Shown: one piece after another, positions 4,735-18,801 of the stretch | How the letters are laid out: every line of letters begins with the position of its first letter | Position numbering within the stretch: position 1 is the stretch's first letter | Assembly (NCBI RefSeq): GCF_008693385.1 | Contig: NZ_CP044067.1 | Coordinates: 1,924,501-1,988,500 of the forward strand | From: Cupriavidus pauculus | GTDB lineage: Bacteria; Pseudomonadota; Gammaproteobacteria; Burkholderiales; Burkholderiaceae | Direction of reading: 5' to 3' | DNA: 64,000 bases | Program-made: the position numbers and the translations under genes | The notes under the pieces: generated by a model | Database searches by the model: none | Seen by the model: the letters and a program-made list of their open reading frames with translations, nothing else | Told to the model about the DNA's origin: nothing

Positions 4735-4856
4735 GACAGTCCCATGTGAATTACGGATGCGACGACTGTAGGGTCGATGGCCGCGGCGGTACTGTCTGCT
4801 AGCCCACACAGTGCACTGGCGGTGCGAGGGCAGTGAAAGCGCGGCCCGAAAATGCA

Positions 4857-4894
4857 CACGGGCGCGCCGCATGTTTCCATGCGGCGCGCCCGTG
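4857..4894 (-). terminator. 17-bp perfect hairpin between luxR-type gene and gmd
   Basis: CACGGGCGCGCCGCATG and its exact complement flank a 4-base TTTC loop. On the minus strand the stem follows the stop codon of the LuxR-type regulator by about 25 bases and is followed by a TTTT tract a few bases on, as expected of a terminator. It also separates that gene from gmd, which is on the same strand. Confidence 0.7.
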
Positions 4895-4918
4895 CGGGAC
4901 GACAGGGACGTCGTGGCT

Positions 4919-5866
4919 TCAGAGAGGCAGGGCGGTGCTTTCGTAGCCGGCGCCGTCGCTACGCTTGGCAATCACCGGCCGCGGCCGGCTATCGCGCGCG
5001 ATGCGTTCGTCGCCGCTGACGATGCGCTCGTCGCCGCTCACCCACTCAAGTGTCGCGCCACGCTGCAACGCTGCGTAGACGGCCTCTCCCTTGTTGCGGA
5101 CCTTGAGCCGCTGATACAGCGTGCAGGCATGGCTCTTCACCGTGGCCACCGAGATATTCAGCATGCGGCTGACCGTCTTGATCGGATAGCCCCGCGCGAG
5201 CAACACGAGTACCTCATATTGACGCGGCGTGATCTTGAGCATCTCCGCCTCGTCGTAGCTGGGCTCGTCCTCGGTGCCGGGCTGCGGCAGGACCGACTGG
5301 CTCACGGCGCCGCGCAGTGCCGCGCGCGGCGTACTGGCGCATGCGGCGAGCGCATGCGGGTCCGCCTGCACGGTAGAGGTCAGTGGCAGCGGCGCGGCGG
5401 AAGCGAGCGATGGTGTGGCCGGCAGCGCGGAACGCGATGCGGCCGGTGCGGTGGTCAGTGCCGTGGTGGACGCCGCCGACTCGCCCGAGAACACCAGTCC
5501 ATGCACGCTCGAGATGGCCAGGCGGATGGCCGCCTCGATCACCGCGAGCGATGCGGACTTCGGCAGGCATCCACAGATGCCGCGCGCGGCTTCCGCGCAG
5601 GGCAGATGCAGCGGCAGCGTGTCCGTCAGAACGAGAATGCGCTGGGGCGAAAGCCGATCGCGGGCGAATTCGAGTTGTTGCCAGCCTGCGGCGGTATCGG
5701 CGGGCATGCCGAACACCATGAGATCCGGATTGCAATGCTGCGCGTCCAGTCGCGCGAGGTCTGCCGGCGCGGTCGCCAGCACATGTCCCCATTCCTGAAT
5801 ATTTTCGAGCATCTGCAGGAGGCCGAGCCGCAATAGCGGGTGCTCCTCGATCAGCAAGGCGTTCAT
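4919..5866 (-). CDS. LuxR-type regulator with degenerate receiver domain
   Basis: 315 residues. Residues 1-120 look like a response-regulator receiver: an acidic pair ([13 protein letters not shown]), a Thr at LVLTD, and the conserved Lys in CLPKSAS. The phospho-acceptor position is altered: the usual PDLxLLD is here PDLMVFG, with Gly about residue 53 in place of Asp. A low-complexity Ala/Ser/Pro linker follows (about 130-205). The C-terminal LuxR helix-turn-helix is intact: [20 protein letters not shown], then [17 protein letters not shown] tail with the doublet [13 protein letters not shown] ends the protein. The start at 5866 has a GGGGAG site about 10 bases upstream. It probably acts without aspartate phosphorylation; its targets are unknown, and the adjacent polysaccharide genes are a guess. 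Confidence 0.85.
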
Positions 5867-8026: not shown

Positions 8027-8293
8027 GATATCGCTCTCTTCGGTTGTCGGACCGGGTGGGTCCGAGGGGTTGTGCCGGGTAGTCTGGAGGGCGGAGGTAT
8101 CCGCCACGACTCGATGCTAATCAACCCGGCCGCGGAGATCATCGCCCTGTCGCTGAAAACACTGTTTCAGATCTCTTATCAATCGTGTTTGCCTATCGGT
8201 CCGATAGTGCATTCCACGCAATAACCGAAATGTGCGGCCGCGCACGTCCGCGACAGGTCTATAGTGGCTGGGTGACACCGTCCGGGGATCGCC

Positions 8294-9058
8294 ATGACGC
8301 CGCCCATGCAGTTTCCGCCCTGCTTCGCCGACCGTCGCGAAGCCGGCCGCTATCTCGGCCGCCGCCTCGCGGAGCTCGGCTATGCCGGCCGGGGCGATCT
8401 GCTCGTCCTGGCGCTGCCGCGCGGCGGCGTGCCCGTGGGATTCGAAGTGGCACGCGCGCTCGATGCCGCGCTGGATGTGCTCCTGGTCCGCAAGATCGGC
8501 GCGCCGGGCTACCCGGAGCTCGCGCTCGGTGCCGTGGTCGAGGGCAGCATGGAGGGCCGGCCACCCTTTACGGTGACCAATGACGATACCTGGGCCCGCC
8601 GCGCCGTGGAGAGTGGGATGTTCGCGGCCGAACGCGGGCGCCAGCTCGACGAGATCTGCCGGCGACAGCAGCGATACCGCCAGGGACGTCCCGTTGCCGC
8701 GCTCGCGGGCCGGCACGTGATTGTCGTGGACGACGGCGTGGCGACCGGCGCGACGATGCGCGCGGCGCTCGCCAGCGTGCGAGCGGCCGGTGCCGCCGGG
8801 GTCGTGGCGGCCTTGCCCGTGGGTGCCATGCAGGGCCTGTTAACGCTGGCATCGGTTGCCGACGCGGTGATCTGCCTCAACACCCCGCCCGAATTCGGCG
8901 CGGTGGGTGCTTACTATCTGGATTTCACGCAGACCAGCGACGACGAGGCGATGGCCCTGATGCGCGAGGCCGCCATGTGGCCGCCATTGCGGCCCCCGCA
9001 GGTGTCGCCGCAGCCGTCGATGCCGCGTGGCGTCACTGCGGGCCCAGGCGCGCCTTGA
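8294..9058 (+). CDS. Phosphoribosyltransferase-fold protein
   Basis: 254 residues. The PRPP-binding signature is clear: HVIVVDDGVATGATM about residues 139-153, i.e. hydrophobic strand, DD, then GxATGAT. An N-terminal region (LALPRGGVPVGFEVARAL, then VRKIGAPGYPELALGAV) is typical of the stand-alone phosphoribosyltransferase-like proteins often found near universal-stress or nuclease genes rather than of the nucleotide salvage enzymes. The acceptor substrate is unknown. ATG at 8294 follows GGGGATC; a second Met four residues on is possible. The 3' end overlaps the end of the convergent small dehydratase subunit gene by 26 bases. Confidence 0.85.
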   Translation: MTPPMQFPPCFADRREAGRYLGRRLAELGYAGRGDLLVLALPRGGVPVGFEVARALDAALDVLLVRKIGAPGYPELALGAVVEGSMEGRPPFTVTNDDTWARRAVESGMFAAERGRQLDEICRRQQRYRQGRPVAALAGRHVIVVDDGVATGATMRAALASVRAAGAAGVVAALPVGAMQGLLTLASVADAVICLNTPPEFGAVGAYYLDFTQTSDDEAMALMREAAMWPPLRPPQVSPQPSMPRGVTAGPGAP

Positions 9059-9530
9059 GGTGCGGCACGAGCCCGCCCGCGGCGAGCATCTCGCGCAGGA
9101 AGTCGGGCACCGGCTCGCAGGCGACGGCGGTGCCGTCGGCAAGCCGTAGCGCGGCGCGATCGAGATCGAAAGTCACGTCGAGCCCGTCGGCCAGTGGTGC
9201 CGTATCGGGGCAGACGAGCACGGGCAGCCCGAGATTGAGCGCGTTGCGATAGAACAGCCCGGCGAAGGACGGCGCGATGACGGCCGCCACGCCGAGATGC
9301 CGCAGCGCCTGCGGCGCCTGCTCGCGGGACGAGCCCATGCCGAAGTTCGCGCCGCCGACCACCACGTCGCCGCGACGCACGCCGGCGGGAAACTCCGGCC
9401 GGAGGTTCTCGAGGCAATGCCGGGCGAGCGCGTCGATGCCGCCTTTCATATGCGCGCCCGGCGCCATGGCGTCGGTATCGACGTTGTCGCCAAAGCGCCA
9501 GATGCGGCCGGTGGATGTGCAAGGGGTCAT
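9033..9530 (-). CDS. Isopropylmalate dehydratase-like small subunit
   Basis: 165 residues from the ATG at 9530; a TTG nine bases upstream is also possible. The fold is the swivel domain of aconitase-superfamily hydro-lyases: FGDNVDTDAMAPG near the N-terminus, then GANFGMGSSREQAPQAL, the conserved GxxFGxGSSREHA-type loop that contacts substrate, and LFYRNALNLGLPVLVCP. It partners the large subunit encoded 40 bases upstream. LeuD of leucine synthesis is the nearest well-known member, but the clustering with a Bug receptor and GntR regulator, away from the leucine genes, suggests a catabolic hydroxy-acid substrate. Confidence 0.85.
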   Translation of the reverse strand: MTPCTSTGRIWRFGDNVDTDAMAPGAHMKGGIDALARHCLENLRPEFPAGVRRGDVVVGGANFGMGSSREQAPQALRHLGVAAVIAPSFAGLFYRNALNLGLPVLVCPDTAPLADGLDVTFDLDRAALRLADGTAVACEPVPDFLREMLAAGGLVPHLKARLGPQ

Positions 9531-12712: not shown

Positions 12713-13338
12713 GGTATGCCTTGGCGATCAGCGCTGACATGTCCGAACGCCACTAATGTACTGTAAATCAGACATAGAGCCTAGCATGAATCTCGCGCGC
12801 CGTTCGGCTCGCCGTGCAGGCCCGCTCGCGTTTCTGTTGCAACGTCGCATCGGCCGGATTTCCATATCGGCGCGCTGGCTGCGTTCGATATATCTGCATG
12901 CGCGCCGTTCGTCAAAGCAGACATCGATGCGTTCGCCAGCACACCGCCGCCCTCGCTGTTTCACTGCCGAAACCGCGTCAGGGGCTGCGGGCTTTCCCCT
13001 AAGCCTTCCGCTAAATCCTTGAATAAACGGCCTTTTCGCGGAATTGCGGCGAGAGGCCTACGGGTCTGGGCAAAAGCGCTGTCACAGCGGTGTGACATGT
13101 CTAGTGCGGTTCACAGGACCGTGGCGTGCGAAGGCGAGGAAATTCCGGTGTCCGAAGCGGGTGTGACCACTCGGTACGTCTTGTATTTCAAGGCATTACA
13201 AGCGTGTTAGCGAGCGCTGGCATTGATTATGCGCAAGTGGAGGCTGGTTTGGCGTCTTGCCGGACCGGAACCTTCAGCCATCGTTCTCGAGAGCGCTGCT
13301 GGAGCTGAGCCGCTGAACAAACTTCCTGGGAGCATCGT
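12713..13338. other. Divergent intergenic region upstream of the exported-protein locus
   Basis: About 625 bases between the GntR gene (minus) and the 506-residue exported protein (plus). A CTTGTA-N11-TACAAG inverted repeat lies at 13180-13202, about 140 bases before the plus-strand ATG, and could be an operator. Short open frames in the gap lack ribosome sites. The length would allow a long 5' leader for the exported-protein operon. Confidence 0.5.
13180..13202. promoter_or_regulatory. CTTGTA-N11-TACAAG inverted repeat
   Basis: Perfect 6-base inverted repeat with an 11-base spacer, upstream of the exported Gly-rich protein gene. A candidate regulator site; nothing identifies the regulator. 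Confidence 0.3.
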
Positions 13339-14859
13339 ATGAAAAAGACATTAATCGCGTCGGCGATCGCACTGACCTTCATTGGAGGTCAAGCCCTCGC
13401 GCAGTCGAACAGAAACGATTCGGGCGACGGCAACAATACGCAGACTGCAACGGACAGCAGCACGCACACGAGCACCAGGACGAACACCAACACCGAGACG
13501 AAGAGCTACTCCAACACCGAGACGAAGTCCAATACCGAAACCAAGACCAACACGGTGATGCTGACGTCCAACAAGACGAGCACCAGCACCCGTAACACCA
13601 CCACCAACCGCGCGAACCTCGACGTCGATGGCTTCGGCACCGCCGCAGCCGCGAACGGCAGCACCGCGACCGCGAACTTCAGCAACGCGTTCAACTCGAG
13701 CAAGGCGATCGCGCTGTCCAAGCTGAGCGGCACGGTGACCGGCAACTCCGTCAGCAACATTGGCAACTATGCCACCAACAGCGGCAATGCCAACGGCGCC
13801 ACGGGCGGCGCGGGCGGCCGCGGCTACGGCGGCACGGGCAATGGCGGGTCCGGCGGCAACGGCGGCAACGGTGGCGCCAGCGGCAACGGCGGTGCCGGCG
13901 GCAATGGCGGCTCGGCGACCAACGGCAGCGCCACTGCCGGCGGCGTGACCAACGGCAGCGCAACGGCCGGTATCGGTGGTGACGGCGGCCGCGCCAGCGG
14001 TTATGGCGGCGACGGCGGCAACGCTTCGTCGCGCGGCGGCAGCGCCCTGACGGCGAGCCTCGGCGCTGGCGGCAATGGTGGCCGGTCCAGCAGCAGCGGC
14101 GGCAGCAGCGGCTCCGGCGCAGCCGGTGGCGACGGCGGCCGCGGTGGCTACGCAGCGGGCCTGGGCGGCAGCGCCCTCGGCGCGAGCGGTGCCCTCGGCG
14201 GCCTGAGCGCGGCCGGCGGCAGCCGTGGCAGCGAACGTGGCGATGGCGCTGGCGGTACCACCTCGACCACCGCGGGCGCGGGCGGTGCCGGTACGACCGG
14301 TGCCACCACGGCCATGGCGGGCGCGGGCACGGGCACGGGCGGCGCGGGCGGTGCGGGCGCAAGCGGCACGGCCACTTCGACCGGCGGCGCGGCCACGAGC
14401 ACCGGCGGTGCTGGCGGCGCGGCGACCTCGACTGCCGGGGCTGCAACGGCTGGCGCGGCCACGGCAACGGGCGGCGCGGGCGGCGCGCAAACGAGCGTGG
14501 CGGGCGCGGGCGGTGCTGGCGGTGCGGCGACCAACGGCAGCGCAACGTCGATGGCCTCGAACGGTAGCGCCACGGCCGGCAACGGCGCGGTGGGCGCAAC
14601 GTCGGGTGCCGGCGGCGCTGGCGCCGCGGGTGGCACGGGCATGGGCGGTACGGGCGGCGCCGGCAACGGTGCGGTCGGTGGCGCTGGCGGCAACGGCGGC
14701 TACAACATGGTCGATGCCGGCTCGTTCAACATGTCCAACGCCATGACCAGTGTCGGTCAATCGGCGGCGGGCATCATGATCGCCAACCAGAACAGCGGTA
14801 TCTCTTCGCTGGTGCAACAAAGCGTCAACGTGCAGGCCAACCTGTCGGTCGGCCGCTGA
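13339..14859 (+). CDS. Exported Gly/Ala-rich low-complexity protein, putative amyloid-type substrate
   Basis: 506 residues. A clean Sec signal peptide (MKKTLIASAIALTFIGGQALA) is followed by a polar Thr/Asn/Ser tract with NTETKS-type repeats (about 22-85), a short distinctive block (NAFNSSKAIALSKLSGTV, about 115-132), then some 320 residues built almost only of Gly, Ala, Asn, Ser and Thr in GGxGG/GNGG/GSAT motifs, and a conserved-looking C-terminal part (about 460-506) containing GIMIANQNSGISSLVQQSVN. No Cys and almost no charge in the long middle. It looks like an extracellular fibre or biofilm matrix protein. It heads a five-gene set whose other members are two exported proteins, a C39 peptidase and an outer-membrane barrel, as in the Pseudomonas Fap amyloid operon. 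GGGAG lies 8 bases before the ATG. Confidence 0.75.
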   Translation: MKKTLIASAIALTFIGGQALAQSNRNDSGDGNNTQTATDSSTHTSTRTNTNTETKSYSNTETKSNTETKTNTVMLTSNKTSTSTRNTTTNRANLDVDGFGTAAAANGSTATANFSNAFNSSKAIALSKLSGTVTGNSVSNIGNYATNSGNANGATGGAGGRGYGGTGNGGSGGNGGNGGASGNGGAGGNGGSATNGSATAGGVTNGSATAGIGGDGGRASGYGGDGGNASSRGGSALTASLGAGGNGGRSSSSGGSSGSGAAGGDGGRGGYAAGLGGSALGASGALGGLSAAGGSRGSERGDGAGGTTSTTAGAGGAGTTGATTAMAGAGTGTGGAGGAGASGTATSTGGAATSTGGAGGAATSTAGAATAGAATATGGAGGAQTSVAGAGGAGGAATNGSATSMASNGSATAGNGAVGATSGAGGAGAAGGTGMGGTGGAGNGAVGGAGGNGGYNMVDAGSFNMSNAMTSVGQSAAGIMIANQNSGISSLVQQSVNVQANLSVGR

Positions 14860-14935
14860 TGCGGGACGGCATCGACCGGGCCGCGTCCTCGCGGGCGCTT
14901 CCGGCCGGTGCCGCCGCGACAAGCGTACGACTGGG

Positions 14936-14970
14936 CCGTCACGCCGCGTGTTCGCTCGCGCGCGTGACGG
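14936..14970 (+). terminator. 9-bp hairpin between the Gly-rich protein gene and the next gene
   Basis: CCGTCACGC and its exact complement flank a 17-base loop in the 189-base gap after the 506-residue gene. There is no strong T tract. It could be a partial terminator or a 3'-end stabiliser giving more of the first product than of the downstream ones. Confidence 0.5.
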
Positions 14971-15048
14971 TTAGGCTCGGAGAAGCCTGACCGTTCCATC
15001 GCACAAGGTCCCGACGGGCCCGCGCGCGGGGAATCAAGGAGACGCACC

Positions 15049-15444
15049 ATGCGAGCGCATCGCTTTGCCGTCATCACCGTGACGGCCCTGCTGGCCTGGC
15101 CAGCGCTGCATGCCACTGCCGGTCCGCCGGACGAGGTGGCATCCGCATCGGTATCGACATCGGCTACCGAATCCGTCAACCGGCCCAATCCTTTCGCCGC
15201 GTCCGCGCGGGCGGTGTCGAGCGAGAAGCTCGAGGGCGTGCGGGGCGGCGCTGAAACCGTGGTCAACGACATGAAGCTGCACGGCACCGTTGCCGATAAC
15301 GCCGCGATCAACGTCAGGTCGGGCAGCAACGCGATTGCCGACGGTTCGTTCGCCAATTCCGCGGGTCTGCCGACCGTGATCCAGAACACGGGGTCCAACG
15401 TGCTGATCCAGAACGCAACGATTCTCAACGTCCAGTTCAAATGA
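15049..15444 (+). CDS. Small exported protein with double-glycine motif
   Basis: 131 residues. Sec signal peptide about 1-24. Then a spacer and KLEGVRGG (GG at 66-67), which fits the double-glycine processing pattern of C39 peptidases: hydrophobic at -7 (Leu) and -4 (Val), Gly at -2 and -1. The part after GG is short, polar and beta-prone, and ends LPTVIQNTGSNVLIQNATIL plus five residues. The IQNT...IQN pattern also ends the protein encoded at 16175-17290. AAGGAG lies before the ATG; the last bases overlap the start of the C39 peptidase gene (ATGA), so the two are translationally coupled. Function inferred only from context: a minor, co-exported or nucleating component. Confidence 0.7.
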   Translation: MRAHRFAVITVTALLAWPALHATAGPPDEVASASVSTSATESVNRPNPFAASARAVSSEKLEGVRGGAETVVNDMKLHGTVADNAAINVRSGSNAIADGSFANSAGLPTVIQNTGSNVLIQNATILNVQFK

Positions 15445-16163
15445 AGACGCGCGCGCGCCGTATGCTGTGGCTCGCGGCTTCGGCCGCCGCCATCGTGGGA
15501 TCGTTCGCCGCCGCACCGCTCGCCTCCGTGGCGCGCGCCGATACGATCCAGCTTCCCGGCCAGAACGGCAACGTTTATACGGTGCCCGTGACGAGCCTGC
15601 GCGAGGCGCGCTTCCGCACAACCGTCAAGCAGCAGTTCGACTTCAGCTGCGGCTCGGCTGCCGTGGCCACGCTGCTCACCTATCAGTACGGCTATCCCGT
15701 GACCGAGCAGGTCGTGTTCGCCAACATGTACGTCAATGGCGACCAGGCGAAGATTCGCGCCGAGGGATTCTCGCTGCTCGACATGAAGCGTTTTCTCGAA
15801 TCGCGCGGCTTTCTGGCGGATGGCTATGAGGTGCCGCTGTCCAAGCTCGAGGAAACGCAGGTCCCGGCGATCGTACTGATCGTCGAGAACGGCTATCACC
15901 ATTTCGTGGTGGTGAAGGGAGTCAAAGGCAATCGCGTGCTGATCGGAGATCCGGCACGCGGCACGCGCGCGCTCGAGCGTGAGCACTTCGAACGGATCTG
16001 GGACAGCAACCTGCTGTTCGTGATCCACAACCGCACCGAGAACGCCCGCTTCAATCTCGCGGCCGACTGGCGTGTTGCGCCAACAGGTCCATACTCAATG
16101 GGAGTCAACCGCGACAGTCTGTTCTTCACCGTCATGCCCAAGCATGGCGCCAGCGATTTCTGA
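15441..16163 (+). CDS. Exported C39-family cysteine peptidase (FapD-like)
   Basis: 240 residues. An N-terminal signal peptide (about 1-33, ending ASVARA) directs it out of the cytoplasm. The C39 fold is evident: QQFDFSCGSAAVATLL holds the oxyanion Gln and the catalytic Cys (about 70), GYHHFVVVKGV holds the His (about 153-154), and VLIGDPARG the Asp (about 170). There is no ABC-transporter part, unlike bacteriocin exporters; stand-alone C39 proteins of this kind accompany FapF-like barrels in Fap amyloid operons. It starts within the stop codon of the small exported gene and ends 11 bases before the next one. A likely job is cutting the two neighbouring exported proteins after their RGG motifs. 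Confidence 0.85.
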   Translation: MKTRARRMLWLAASAAAIVGSFAAAPLASVARADTIQLPGQNGNVYTVPVTSLREARFRTTVKQQFDFSCGSAAVATLLTYQYGYPVTEQVVFANMYVNGDQAKIRAEGFSLLDMKRFLESRGFLADGYEVPLSKLEETQVPAIVLIVENGYHHFVVVKGVKGNRVLIGDPARGTRALEREHFERIWDSNLLFVIHNRTENARFNLAADWRVAPTGPYSMGVNRDSLFFTVMPKHGASDF

Positions 16164-16174
16164 GGAACATCATC

Positions 16175-17290
16175 ATGGTTCAGACAACCGCATCACACGC
16201 GCCTCGCCGCGCGGCGGTTCCGGCCGCGGCGGCAATGCTGCTTGGCGCGGGACTCGCCTGTGCCGGCCAGGCGCAGGCGAGCATCGGCGGGACGGAGACC
16301 GTCAACCCCGACCTTGCCGCGACGCCAGCGTCGATCAGCACGGGCCTGGCCGAAGAGGCCGTCGCCGCGCCCATCGACGTCGCCGTCCCTGTTCCGATGG
16401 CATTGGCCGAGCCGTTGCCGTCCACAGCCGCCGTTCCCCCTGCCGTGCCCGCCATCGCCCGTGCCGACGCACTCGCGCTGCTTGCCGCCGTGGCCGCGGA
16501 ACCGCCGGCCCCACCCGTCGCGCGCCGCGCGCGGGACGAAATGGCCAAGGCCATGGACCTCGCCGAGCGCGAACCCGCGCGCGTGGCCCACGCGCGGAAC
16601 GACATGGCCAAATGGAAACCGGTTGCGCACGCAAAGCTCGACGAGGCGCGCGGCGGCTTCGATGTCGGCGGCCTGCAGGTCGGCTTCGGTATCGATCGCG
16701 CGGTCTACGTCAATGGCTCGCTTGCCGTGGCCACCAGCATTTCGATTCCTGACGTGAGCCGCATCACCGCGGCGCAGGCCGCGCAGCTGCAACAGGCGCT
16801 TGGCGGTGTCGCCGCCGCCGTCGCCCAGGCCAACACGGCGGCCAACAGCGCGGTTGCCGCGGCAAACGCGGCTGCTGCCGATGCACGGGCACAGGCAGGA
16901 CAAGCTGGCGCCGCCGCGCAGGCGACCGCCGCGGGCGCCGTGGCCGCCGCCACCGGCGCGGCGGGCAGCAGCGCGTCGGCGAGCAGCGGTCCCGCGACGG
17001 GCGCGTCCGCCTCGGCGACCGGCGCGAGCGGGCTGCCGACGAGCATCGTGGCTACCGCCACGGGCACGGTGGCGACGAACGGATTGTCGAACGTCGTGCA
17101 GAACGGCACGGGCAATACCGCGAACATAGGTGCGATGGCGAACATGCCAGCGACCGTCATCCAGAATACGCTCAACAACCAAAGCATCCAGAGCCTGATG
17201 ACGATCAGCGCGAGCGTGAACACGCTCGCCGCATTCCGGGCGCAAGTCGCCAACACAGCCTTGAACAGCGTGATTCAGCGCATGAGGTAA
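16175..17290 (+). CDS. Exported Ala-rich protein with double-glycine motif
   Basis: 371 residues. The N-terminus has a Tat-or-Sec-like signal region (about 1-35, ending CAGQAQA). Residues 40-150 are Ala/Pro-rich. KLDEARGG at about 154-161 repeats the double-glycine pattern seen in the 131-residue neighbour (KLEGVRGG), followed by FDVGGLQVGFGIDRAVYVNG, a beta-type stretch. A helical Ala/Gln segment (about 185-260) and a Gly/Ser/Ala segment follow, then a C-terminus with ATVIQNTLNNQSIQSLMTIS. GAGGAA precedes the ATG. It sits between the C39 peptidase and the outer-membrane barrel and may be a co-exported fibre component comparable in position to FapE. No family name is certain. Confidence 0.7.
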   Translation: MVQTTASHAPRRAAVPAAAAMLLGAGLACAGQAQASIGGTETVNPDLAATPASISTGLAEEAVAAPIDVAVPVPMALAEPLPSTAAVPPAVPAIARADALALLAAVAAEPPAPPVARRARDEMAKAMDLAEREPARVAHARNDMAKWKPVAHAKLDEARGGFDVGGLQVGFGIDRAVYVNGSLAVATSISIPDVSRITAAQAAQLQQALGGVAAAVAQANTAANSAVAAANAAAADARAQAGQAGAAAQATAAGAVAAATGAAGSSASASSGPATGASASATGASGLPTSIVATATGTVATNGLSNVVQNGTGNTANIGAMANMPATVIQNTLNNQSIQSLMTISASVNTLAAFRAQVANTALNSVIQRMR

Positions 17291-17361
17291 GCGCCCAGTC
17301 GATACAGGCAATCAGGTAGCGGGCTCCTGCAAATCAGCCCGTCCCGGGGGAGGGAGACGTC

Positions 17362-18801
17362 ATGAAGAAGCGTTCGCTGCAGGGCATCGGCTTTGCCGGT
17401 TGCTCGACGATGCTGCTGCTCGGCGGTCTGAGCCAGGCCCAGACCGTCCCGGATGGCGGGCCACCAGGCGTGGCCAAGCTCGAAAGCCTGCAGAAGGAAC
17501 TGGCGGAACAAGCCAGACAGCTCGAGCAGATGAAGCGCGCACTTGCGGAACAGGAAGCCACCATCCGCGAATTGCGCAACGTGATGACCAACGATTCACT
17601 CGCGCGCAAGCGCGGGGGCCAGCGTACCCCGAGCGACGCGGCCACCAGCGCCGCGGCGGCCGGAGCCGGCTCGAGCGCGACACAGATCAACAACACCGTT
17701 CAACAGGGCATGCAGGCGCAGCAGGAAGCGCCGCAGGCCGTGCAGCCGGGCGGGCGCGGCAGTGCCCAGGGCGCGCAGGCCGGGGAATCGATGGCGGGGC
17801 CCGCGGTCGAGGAACCCGTCGGCCGTCCGCCCGAGTCCGACGGCCGCCCTCCGGAAATCGCGCCGATCTTCGATCAGCCGGGCGTGCTCACGCCGCAGGG
17901 CAAGATCGTCGTCGAACCGAGCTTCCAGTACGGCTACTCGTCGAACAATCGCGTCGCGCTGGTCGGCTACTCGGTGATCCCTGCCGTGCTCATCGGCCTG
18001 ATCGACGTGCGCGAGGTCAAGACCACGACATACCTGAGCGCGGTCGCATTGCGCTACGGCATCACCAAGCGGCTCGAGATCGAAGCGAAGGTGCCATACG
18101 TGCATACGAGCGGGCAGACCGTGAGCCGCGAGGTCTTCACCGGTACCGCGGTCGATAACGTGTTCAACGCGAGCGGCAGCGGCCTTGGCGACGTCGAAGC
18201 GACCCTGCGCTACCAGCTGAACTACGGCAACGAGAAGATGCCGTACTTCATCGGCTGGTTCCGCTACAAGTCCAATACCGGCAAGGATCCGTTCGAAGTG
18301 GTCACTGACTGCGTGACACGCTGCGTGAGCAATACCACCGGCACGGGCCTGCCCCTGGGCATGCCGACCGGCACCGGCTTCCAGGCGGTCCAGCCAGGTG
18401 TGACGTGGCTGCTGCCGACCGATCCCGCAGTGTTCTTCGGCACCTTCAGCTATCTGCACAACTTCGCGCGCGACAACGTCAGCCGCACGGTGCTGAACGG
18501 CGAGAAGGAGTTCCTGGGCAAGATCTCGCCGGGGGATATCTTCCAGTTCAACTTCGGCATGGGCCTCTCGCTGAACGAGCATGCCTCGTTCAGTATCGGC
18601 TACGACCAGAGCATCATCTGGCCGACGAAACTGAACGGTCAGACGATTCCGGGCTCGGTGCGGATCACGCAGGGCACGCTGCTCGTGGGCTACTCGTACC
18701 GTTTCAATCAGCGCTACACGCTCAACCTGTCGGTGGGCGCGGGCCTGACGCGCGATACGCCGGACCTGACGGTGACACTGCGCCTGCCTATCACGTTCTG
18801 A
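17362..18801 (+). CDS. Outer-membrane barrel with N-terminal coiled coil (FapF-like exporter)
   Basis: 479 residues. Signal peptide about 1-27 (ends GGLSQAQ). Residues 38-76 form a heptad-rich coiled coil (KLESLQKELAEQARQLEQMK and on). A Gln/Pro/Gly/Arg-rich linker runs to about 165, then a beta-barrel of alternating polar and hydrophobic strands begins at PQGKIVVEPSFQYGYSSNN and ends at the C-terminus with TVTLRLPITF, whose terminal Phe suits outer-membrane assembly. This layout (coiled coil, linker, barrel of about 300 residues) is that of FapF, the trimeric amyloid exporter of Pseudomonas. A GGGGGAGGGAG tract precedes the ATG. It is probably the export pore for the upstream low-complexity proteins; general 'transporter' barrels of the phenol-degradation MetA type are an alternative label. 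Confidence 0.75.
   Translation: MKKRSLQGIGFAGCSTMLLLGGLSQAQTVPDGGPPGVAKLESLQKELAEQARQLEQMKRALAEQEATIRELRNVMTNDSLARKRGGQRTPSDAATSAAAAGAGSSATQINNTVQQGMQAQQEAPQAVQPGGRGSAQGAQAGESMAGPAVEEPVGRPPESDGRPPEIAPIFDQPGVLTPQGKIVVEPSFQYGYSSNNRVALVGYSVIPAVLIGLIDVREVKTTTYLSAVALRYGITKRLEIEAKVPYVHTSGQTVSREVFTGTAVDNVFNASGSGLGDVEATLRYQLNYGNEKMPYFIGWFRYKSNTGKDPFEVVTDCVTRCVSNTTGTGLPLGMPTGTGFQAVQPGVTWLLPTDPAVFFGTFSYLHNFARDNVSRTVLNGEKEFLGKISPGDIFQFNFGMGLSLNEHASFSIGYDQSIIWPTKLNGQTIPGSVRITQGTLLVGYSYRFNQRYTLNLSVGAGLTRDTPDLTVTLRLPITF

Follow-up and report, generated by a model that had tools for sequence, protein, structure and literature searches.

The 64,000-nucleotide stretch analyzed here (the window) comes from Cupriavidus pauculus (contig NZ_CP044067.1 of assembly GCF_008693385.1) and carries five genes on the plus strand, here called P1 to P5, whose products resemble parts of the Fap amyloid export system. 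P1 (13339-14859) encodes an exported Gly/Ala-rich protein of 506 amino acids (aa), a candidate major fibre or matrix subunit. P2 (15049-15444) encodes an exported protein of 131 aa with a signal, a leader, and a C-terminal unit, and P3 (15441-16163) an exported C39 cysteine peptidase of 240 aa, related to FapD and FilB, with Cys70, His154, and Asp170. P4 (16175-17290) encodes an exported Ala-rich protein of 371 aa, probably a distant relative of FapE, and P5 (17362-18801) a FapF-like outer-membrane exporter of 479 aa, in which a coiled coil (residues 36-82) is followed by a linker and a barrel. The genes are closely spaced, with 189 nt between P1 and P2, 11 nt between P3 and P4, and 71 nt between P4 and P5, while P2 and P3 overlap in an ATGA at 15441-15444.

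The five open reading frames (ORFs) are real, intact, and operon-like. An earlier note, made from the letters of the window, had described them on this strand with the same coordinates and overlap, and had likened the third and last products to FapD and FapF; both descriptions hold. Chance ORFs were ruled out, as P5 is present in 34 of 36 Cupriavidus genomes, the window's own included (the misses are G012, 54% complete, and G024, 97% complete), and the gene set is kept far beyond the genus. Signal peptides were assigned by visual inspection of the window and, in relatives, by a simple hydrophobicity rule of our own rather than a dedicated predictor, and ORF starts in relatives were likewise chosen by our own rule.

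The P3 and P5 products and their place beside Fap and Fil

P3 matched the Pfam Peptidase_C39 model (3.3e-24) and the NCBIfam models for FapD (148 bits, E 1.8e-43, short of the cut-off of 330) and FilB (129 bits). The FapD of a clear Fap locus, L046, also remained under the cut-off (210 bits). The Cys, His, and Asp motifs were found by pattern in 48 of 51 P3 sequences and by eye in the other three. P5 in turn matched NCBIfam FapF with 133 bits (E 1.2e-38, under the cut-off of 700, as is the L046 FapF with 348 bits), FilC with 37 bits, and the FapF sequences in the PDB at 6.3e-28. In the AlphaFold model of P5 (pLDDT 72.2), a disordered linker joins a helix at residues 36-82 to a barrel. When the fold was compared with the PDB, as the earlier note had proposed for the barrel, each of the top 18 matches was a chain of FapF (TM-scores of 0.77-0.85 by target), followed by a COG4313 channel. 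By these matches P5 is a relative of FapF, an exporter type with a coiled coil, a plug, and a 12-strand barrel, and P3 a relative of FapD.

A tree of 39 peptidases resolved three groups, comprising the new peptidases (26 rows, 96/90), FapD (10 rows, 100/99), and FilB (3 rows, 100/100). In this tree the P3 peptidases form their own branch, sister to FapD and not inside the FapD branch. Membership in plain Fap was rejected on this separate branch together with the failure to find FapC repeats. The Fil system of Acinetobacter (FilA, FilB, and FilC) is a putative pilus with FilA as its subunit (PMC11784438), and likewise joins a periplasmic C39 peptidase to a FapF-like barrel. The FilA-like small proteins of two Burkholderiales loci, L139 and L161, carry L-x3-TGQ directly after the signal. 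Membership of the window locus in Fil was rejected, since P3 scored lower with FilB than with FapD and P5 lower with FilC than with FapF; FilA and Pfam DUF6160 had no match among the five products. The C39 domains of ABC exporters are like P3 in family and catalytic residues and act on substrates with a double-glycine leader, whereas P3 is a stand-alone exported enzyme, with presumed substrates that depend on a Sec signal beforehand. Earlier surveys had found that FapD and FapF models match larger families (PMC3792158) and that fapD and fapF homologues occur together in five further phyla (PMC6173800).

The distribution of the locus was followed in 52 loci chosen for a P5 of this class. Many of these are from Cupriavidus and are hence not independent; excluded were duplicates, L082, contig-end loci (such as L043, L053, and L054), and the isolated P5 copy of L036/L066. 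P2, P3, P4, and P5 occurred together in 50 of the 52; within the 52, L149 contributed P5 alone, and L144 is cut by the edge of its contig. The four genes were all present in 12 of 12 loci from other orders, these being 12 of the 13 non-window genomes with a P2 match, the weak match of G424 not among them. The P2 profile had matches in 24 of 300 genomes within the order and, at the level of the class, in 14 of 369, the window's own included. P5 was found in 3 of 24 genomes from other families of the order, G043 being counted by its canonical FapF, and the closest named P5 among 32 loci were those of Cupriavidus plantarum (96% identity) and C. pampae (95%). Outside Cupriavidus, the P5 gene often lies on the opposite strand, convergent with P1-P4. 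The gene set is thus conserved in relatives, where the earlier note had asked for a search. Its view of a system distinct from canonical fap stands with the separate peptidase branch and with genomes that hold both; the system extends, however, beyond the Burkholderiales, as the 12 loci in other orders show.

Double-glycine leaders in P2 and P4

C39 leaders follow the consensus LSxxELxxIxGG, with hydrophobic residues at -12, -7, and -4 and glycines at -2 and -1. Well behind the signal peptides of both P2 and P4 we found stretches of this form. In P2 the leader VSSEKLEGVRGG (15214-15249, plus strand; next residue A) has a predicted cut after Gly67, and in P4 the leader VAHAKLDEARGG (16622-16657, plus strand; next residue F) a predicted cut after Gly161. 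This double-glycine leader, L-x3-RGG, behind the P4 and P2 signal peptides is, as read from the sequences, the new feature here. In a literature search that covered mainly the text of openly accessible articles we found no paper describing the operon or the leader, and any priority is therefore tentative. The earlier note had overlooked both leaders as well as the relation between P2 and P4. The two are related, with a profile comparison scoring 72.5 over 119 columns where repeat shuffles reached 13.6 at most; here and below, P1 rows L031 and L048 and P4 rows L038, L144, L145, L155, and L159 were left out of the hhalign profiles.

Among the chosen loci RGG was present in 48 of 51 P4 and 39 of 50 P2. 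When the window and the 12 loci from other orders were added, L-x3-[RQ]GG was found in 59 of 64 P4. The pattern itself fixes L at -7 and GG; at the positions it leaves free, the 59 were hydrophobic in 93% at -12 and 76% at -4, and F came next in 53. Four of the five misses (L038, L144, L145, and L155) look like wrong or cut-off starts, and the fifth, L188, has M for L. A looser pattern, L-x3-[RTA]G[GARKQ], was found in 55 of 63 P2; 42 of these 55 have G at -1, and hydrophobic residues stand at -12 in 83% and at -4 in 69%. In alignment A3 (20 of 52 P4 sequences, window included, hand-picked for spread), L155, R159, G160, and G161 were among nine invariant columns, in a setting of 19% mean column identity. 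Q330 and N331, within the P4 C-terminal unit VIQNTLNNQSIQSLMTISASV (17156-17218, plus strand), were invariant as well. The best conserved part of P2 in alignment A2 (25 of 51 sequences, selected in the same way) was its C-terminal unit NAIADGSFANSAGLPTVIQNTGSNVLIQNATILNVQFK (15328-15441, plus strand). L-x3-RGG was also present in 117 of the best 120 of 375 database relatives of P2, most named ones being Cupriavidus. The P2 model (mean pLDDT 59) was mostly disordered, its sole helices being the signal (3-21) and leader residues 58-64. Because of these leaders behind the signal peptides, P2 and P4 are likely substrates of the periplasmic peptidase P3. In the Cupriavidus group, the P4 of L041, L061, L064, L067, and L068 have two to three copies of the motif.

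The same region of P4 connects it to FapE. The P4 and FapE profiles aligned with a score of 51.8 over 39 columns that run from the leader into the beginning of the mature protein, against a maximum of 18.5 in 60 column shuffles and again 18.5 in 40 more. P2 compared with an inner stretch of FapE gave 39.7, against 19.4 for shuffles. The NCBIfam FapE model did not match P4. By profile, P4 is a probable distant relative of FapE, so that the genes follow the order of fap(BC)DEF, with fapA missing. FapA itself had no match among the five products beyond E 0.058 (P5, in the coiled coil), a search that covered these products and not the rest of the genome. The claim in the earlier note that the smaller exported proteins are unlike FapA, FapB, and FapE thus probably does not hold for P4, and the link of P2 to FapB is weak.

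At the place of the P4 leader, canonical FapE reads [LM]-x3-RG[RK] or TG[RK], where P4 has RGG; FapE has a leader-like motif at the same place but departs from the C39-leader form at -1. The 24 FapE sequences of the P4 comparison were selected by a pattern that includes the motif (one row, L098, matched at the wrong place), and their motif count of 24/24 is therefore circular. The 20 FapE places found through the NCBIfam model read [LM]-x3-RG[RK]. The best 120 of 381 FapE relatives are mainly from Burkholderia and Paraburkholderia, with none named Pseudomonas; 112 of these have the pattern followed by Y, F, or L (110 TGK and 2 RGK), and six of the other eight were read, with TGK or TGR. From the position of the P4 leader a candidate cut site in FapE can be named. 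Many of these Burkholderia and Paraburkholderia FapE relatives (P0128-P0239) are publicly named 'peptidase C39', yet look like the neighbour of the peptidase.

P1 and the candidate upstream control region

P1 consists of 27.7% Gly and 18.0% Ala, with 63% Gly+Ala over residues 151-455, a composition that sets the locus apart from Fap. P1 has no Cys, and FapC-type repeats were not found in it or in P2; the earlier note had seen neither such repeats nor a Cys pair in P1. Neither Pfam nor NCBIfam models matched P1, P2, or P4. The alignment of P1 with the FapC profile was confined to the signal peptide, and P2 with FapC scored 21.5, under the shuffle maximum of 26.2. FapB scored 28.1 with P2 (shuffles 19.4) over 24 columns, with no NCBIfam FapB match, and 24.2 with Gly-poor P1 (shuffles 20.1) over 35 columns.

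The C-terminal stretch of P1 (ending in AGIMIANQNSGISSLVQQSVNVQANLSV; 14656-14856, plus strand; alignment A4) is related to the C-terminal unit of P2, with an hhalign score of 41.7 against a shuffle maximum of 18.4. Nine Gly-poor P1 relatives compared with P2 gave 51.9 over 52 columns (shuffle maximum 16.1). Because the P1 C-terminus matches P2, the Gly/Ala-rich part is best seen as a variable stretch beside a conserved unit. P1 relatives were detected in 44 of the 52 chosen loci, two of the 44 being cut off, and an L-x3-RGG-like pattern occurred in just 2 of 45 P1. In L191, two similar P1-type genes (4758-5663 and 8221-9144) flank P2-P3-P4, and in both of them four copies of the unit can be made out by eye.

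Upstream of P1 lie a perfect inverted repeat, TGTCACA-N4-TGTGACA (13080-13097), which is a candidate upstream activator site, and a sigma-54 type -24/-12 promoter-like site, TGGCATTGATTATGC(G) (13218-13233, plus strand), 121 nt before the P1 start. The palindrome is unique in the 7.06 Mb genome (3 contigs), with no match in a backward control, and was conserved in a 15-row upstream alignment. An exact copy was present in 31 of 200 fetched loci, duplicates counted (L194 corresponds to the site in the window itself, and L055, L057, and L058 repeat L035, L033, and L032). Nearly all of these are from the Cupriavidus group, with L153 and L158 in addition; two Cupriavidus loci, L044 and L050, lack an exact copy though both reach that far. 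With three mismatches allowed the palindrome was the sole match in the window, yet 75 of 100 shuffles gave at least one such loose match, and it is therefore the exact match and the conservation that carry weight.

In 27 of 27 rows from the Cupriavidus group the -24/-12 site, located 120-132 nt ahead of P1, scored best, and 0 to 4 of 100 shuffles per row were equally good; the scoring used the general consensus with weights of our own. Seventeen other rows were mixed, with several strong sites, and with L048, L142, L147, L150, L154, and L155 no better than shuffles. A sigma-54 activator-like protein (G000:C3:1877942-1879576, L195) is encoded about 60 kb from the operon and is 82% identical to one beside the fap locus of L046.

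A model for export and its alternatives

We consider it probable that the locus represents a separate class of Fap-type export system, in which P3 cuts the leaders of P4 and P2 and P5 exports P1, P2, and P4. All five products would cross the inner membrane via Sec. In the periplasm, P3 would remove the N-terminal leader of P4 after the double glycine of L-x3-RGG and, in most lineages examined, would likewise trim P2, a cleavage that may mature or license the two proteins. P1, P2, and P4, largely unfolded and recruited by the periplasmic coiled coil of P5, would then exit through a P5 trimer, as the homology to FapF suggests. P1 would be the bulk subunit, placing the conserved C-terminal unit it has in common with P2 beside the long Gly/Ala-rich stretch, and P2 and P4 would be minor subunits that initiate or cap assembly, a role also attributed to FapB and FapE. 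The sigma-54 type promoter, together with an activator at the upstream palindrome, would control the operon. A leader pattern found in P4 and P2 but rare in P1 agrees with the peptide data available from PMC5557850, in which peptides span FapB and FapC throughout and the FapE N-terminus is missing.

Several observations weigh against this reading. The P2 pattern is absent in 8 of the 12 loci from other orders (L186-L193) and present in 4, the P2 of L151-L154 and L156-L159 have a single glycine, and no known double-glycine leader model in Pfam or NCBIfam matched the leader stretches of P2 and P4. P1 was undetected in 8 of the 52 chosen loci, though some of the missing genes may exist, as L151 and L159 have exported ORFs with a similar C-terminus. 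P5 can also stand alone, both in L066 (7632-9470; Cupriavidus sp. BIS7), where it is 72% identical to that of the window, and in L149 (6397-7470) of G457, a genome that also has a full set, L148. As for FapE, C39 enzymes want G, A, or S where it has R or K. The likeness to a C39 leader is weakened further as Burkholderia-type FapE is hydrophobic at -12 in 112 of 112 sequences but at -4 in only 2 of 112. The published gap in FapE peptides spans about 70 residues, whereas in one FapE (L049) the motif already ends around residue 52, and a 2023 statement that FapD modifies FapC (PMC10638192) would speak against FapE as the only target. Lastly, FapC repeats were not found in P1 or P2 by Pfam, NCBIfam, or profile comparison, and fibre formation by P1 therefore rests on analogy.

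By that analogy the product may be an amyloid or other fibre. The exported material could instead be a soluble glue, an adhesin, or a surface coat, and the wide variation of P1 relatives in length (268-885 aa) and Gly+Ala content (18-54%; the cut-off L031 and L048 excluded) is in keeping with this. We regard it as rather unlikely, as the machine is homologous to an amyloid exporter and the Q/N-rich C-terminal unit is conserved in P1 and P2, up to the four copies seen by eye in P1 of L191.

Alternatively, the locus might be a diverged canonical Fap operon with P1 and P2 as FapC and FapB, their repeats drifted beyond recognition. The order collinear with fapBCDEF, the homology of P4 to FapE, and the weak FapB matches of P2 and Gly-poor P1, just above shuffles, would fit, as would the report that fap operons often deviate by a deletion of fapA, one of their most frequent departures (PMC3792158). 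We nevertheless judge this unlikely. P2 with FapC stayed below shuffles and P1 matched FapC in the signal peptide only, and the peptidase tree splits the new, Fap, and Fil groups. The FapF model, run over the order, matched 36 of 300 genomes at 44 places that fall into separate ranges, with 11 at 343-519 bits, 24 at 120-172 bits, and 9 weaker. The weak-FapF Burkholderiales loci L139, L140, and L161 group with Fil in the peptidase tree (Fil models were run on L139 and the FilA of L161). Moreover, the new class and canonical fap share a genome in G001, G021, G023, G534, G634, G664, and G667. In G021, each of the six Fap models from FapA to FapF has a match in locus L046, all under curated cut-offs; in G001 and G023 the D and F genes match, and B, C, and E were recognized by eye, FapE also by model. 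The FapE model matched 4 of 60 relatives, the window's genome not among them.

P3 might also cut P5 where its coiled coil ends, at LARKRGG (17599-17619, plus strand), and so close the pore, as has been proposed for FapF. A GG in the FapF linker was noted earlier (PMC5557850, PMC5135000), in the first of these along with GG motifs in FapE, and L-x3-RGG stands at the coiled-coil end in 27 of 53 P5. The motif is absent in the other 26 and limited to Cupriavidus-group rows, L077, and L080, so that a second P3 site would apply to some lineages only, and we find this step doubtful.

Some type I systems use C39-like domains that do not cut, and RGG could in that manner be left uncut as a docking site for P3 as chaperone or gate, with the multiple motif copies of some P4 as docking repeats; that FapE and some P2 lack the final glycine would fit. 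This is improbable given that P3 retains the catalytic Cys, His, and Asp and that secretion requires Cys38 of FapD (PMC5557850).

If P3 does cut the leaders of P4 and P2, the placement of a C39 enzyme between two leader proteins, one of them related to FapE, would allow the cut site to be named to the residue in both systems. The target of FapD is described as unclear in PMC5557850 and as still to be determined in PMC6173800, and is taken to be FapC in PMC10638192, a question on which the candidate site bears. The locus also shows that, in many families of proteobacteria, Fap-type export is associated with a glycine-rich partner of a very different kind. More tentatively, and close to an even call in our judgment, Fap, Fil, and the new system may be three branches of one pathway consisting of Sec export, C39 removal of an [LM]-x3-[RT]G[GKRQ] leader, and exit through a FapF-type trimer, with FapE and FilA as cleaved partners. 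Such a pathway would be indifferent to the fibre it carries and, if so, its cargo could switch from Fap repeats to Gly-rich proteins.

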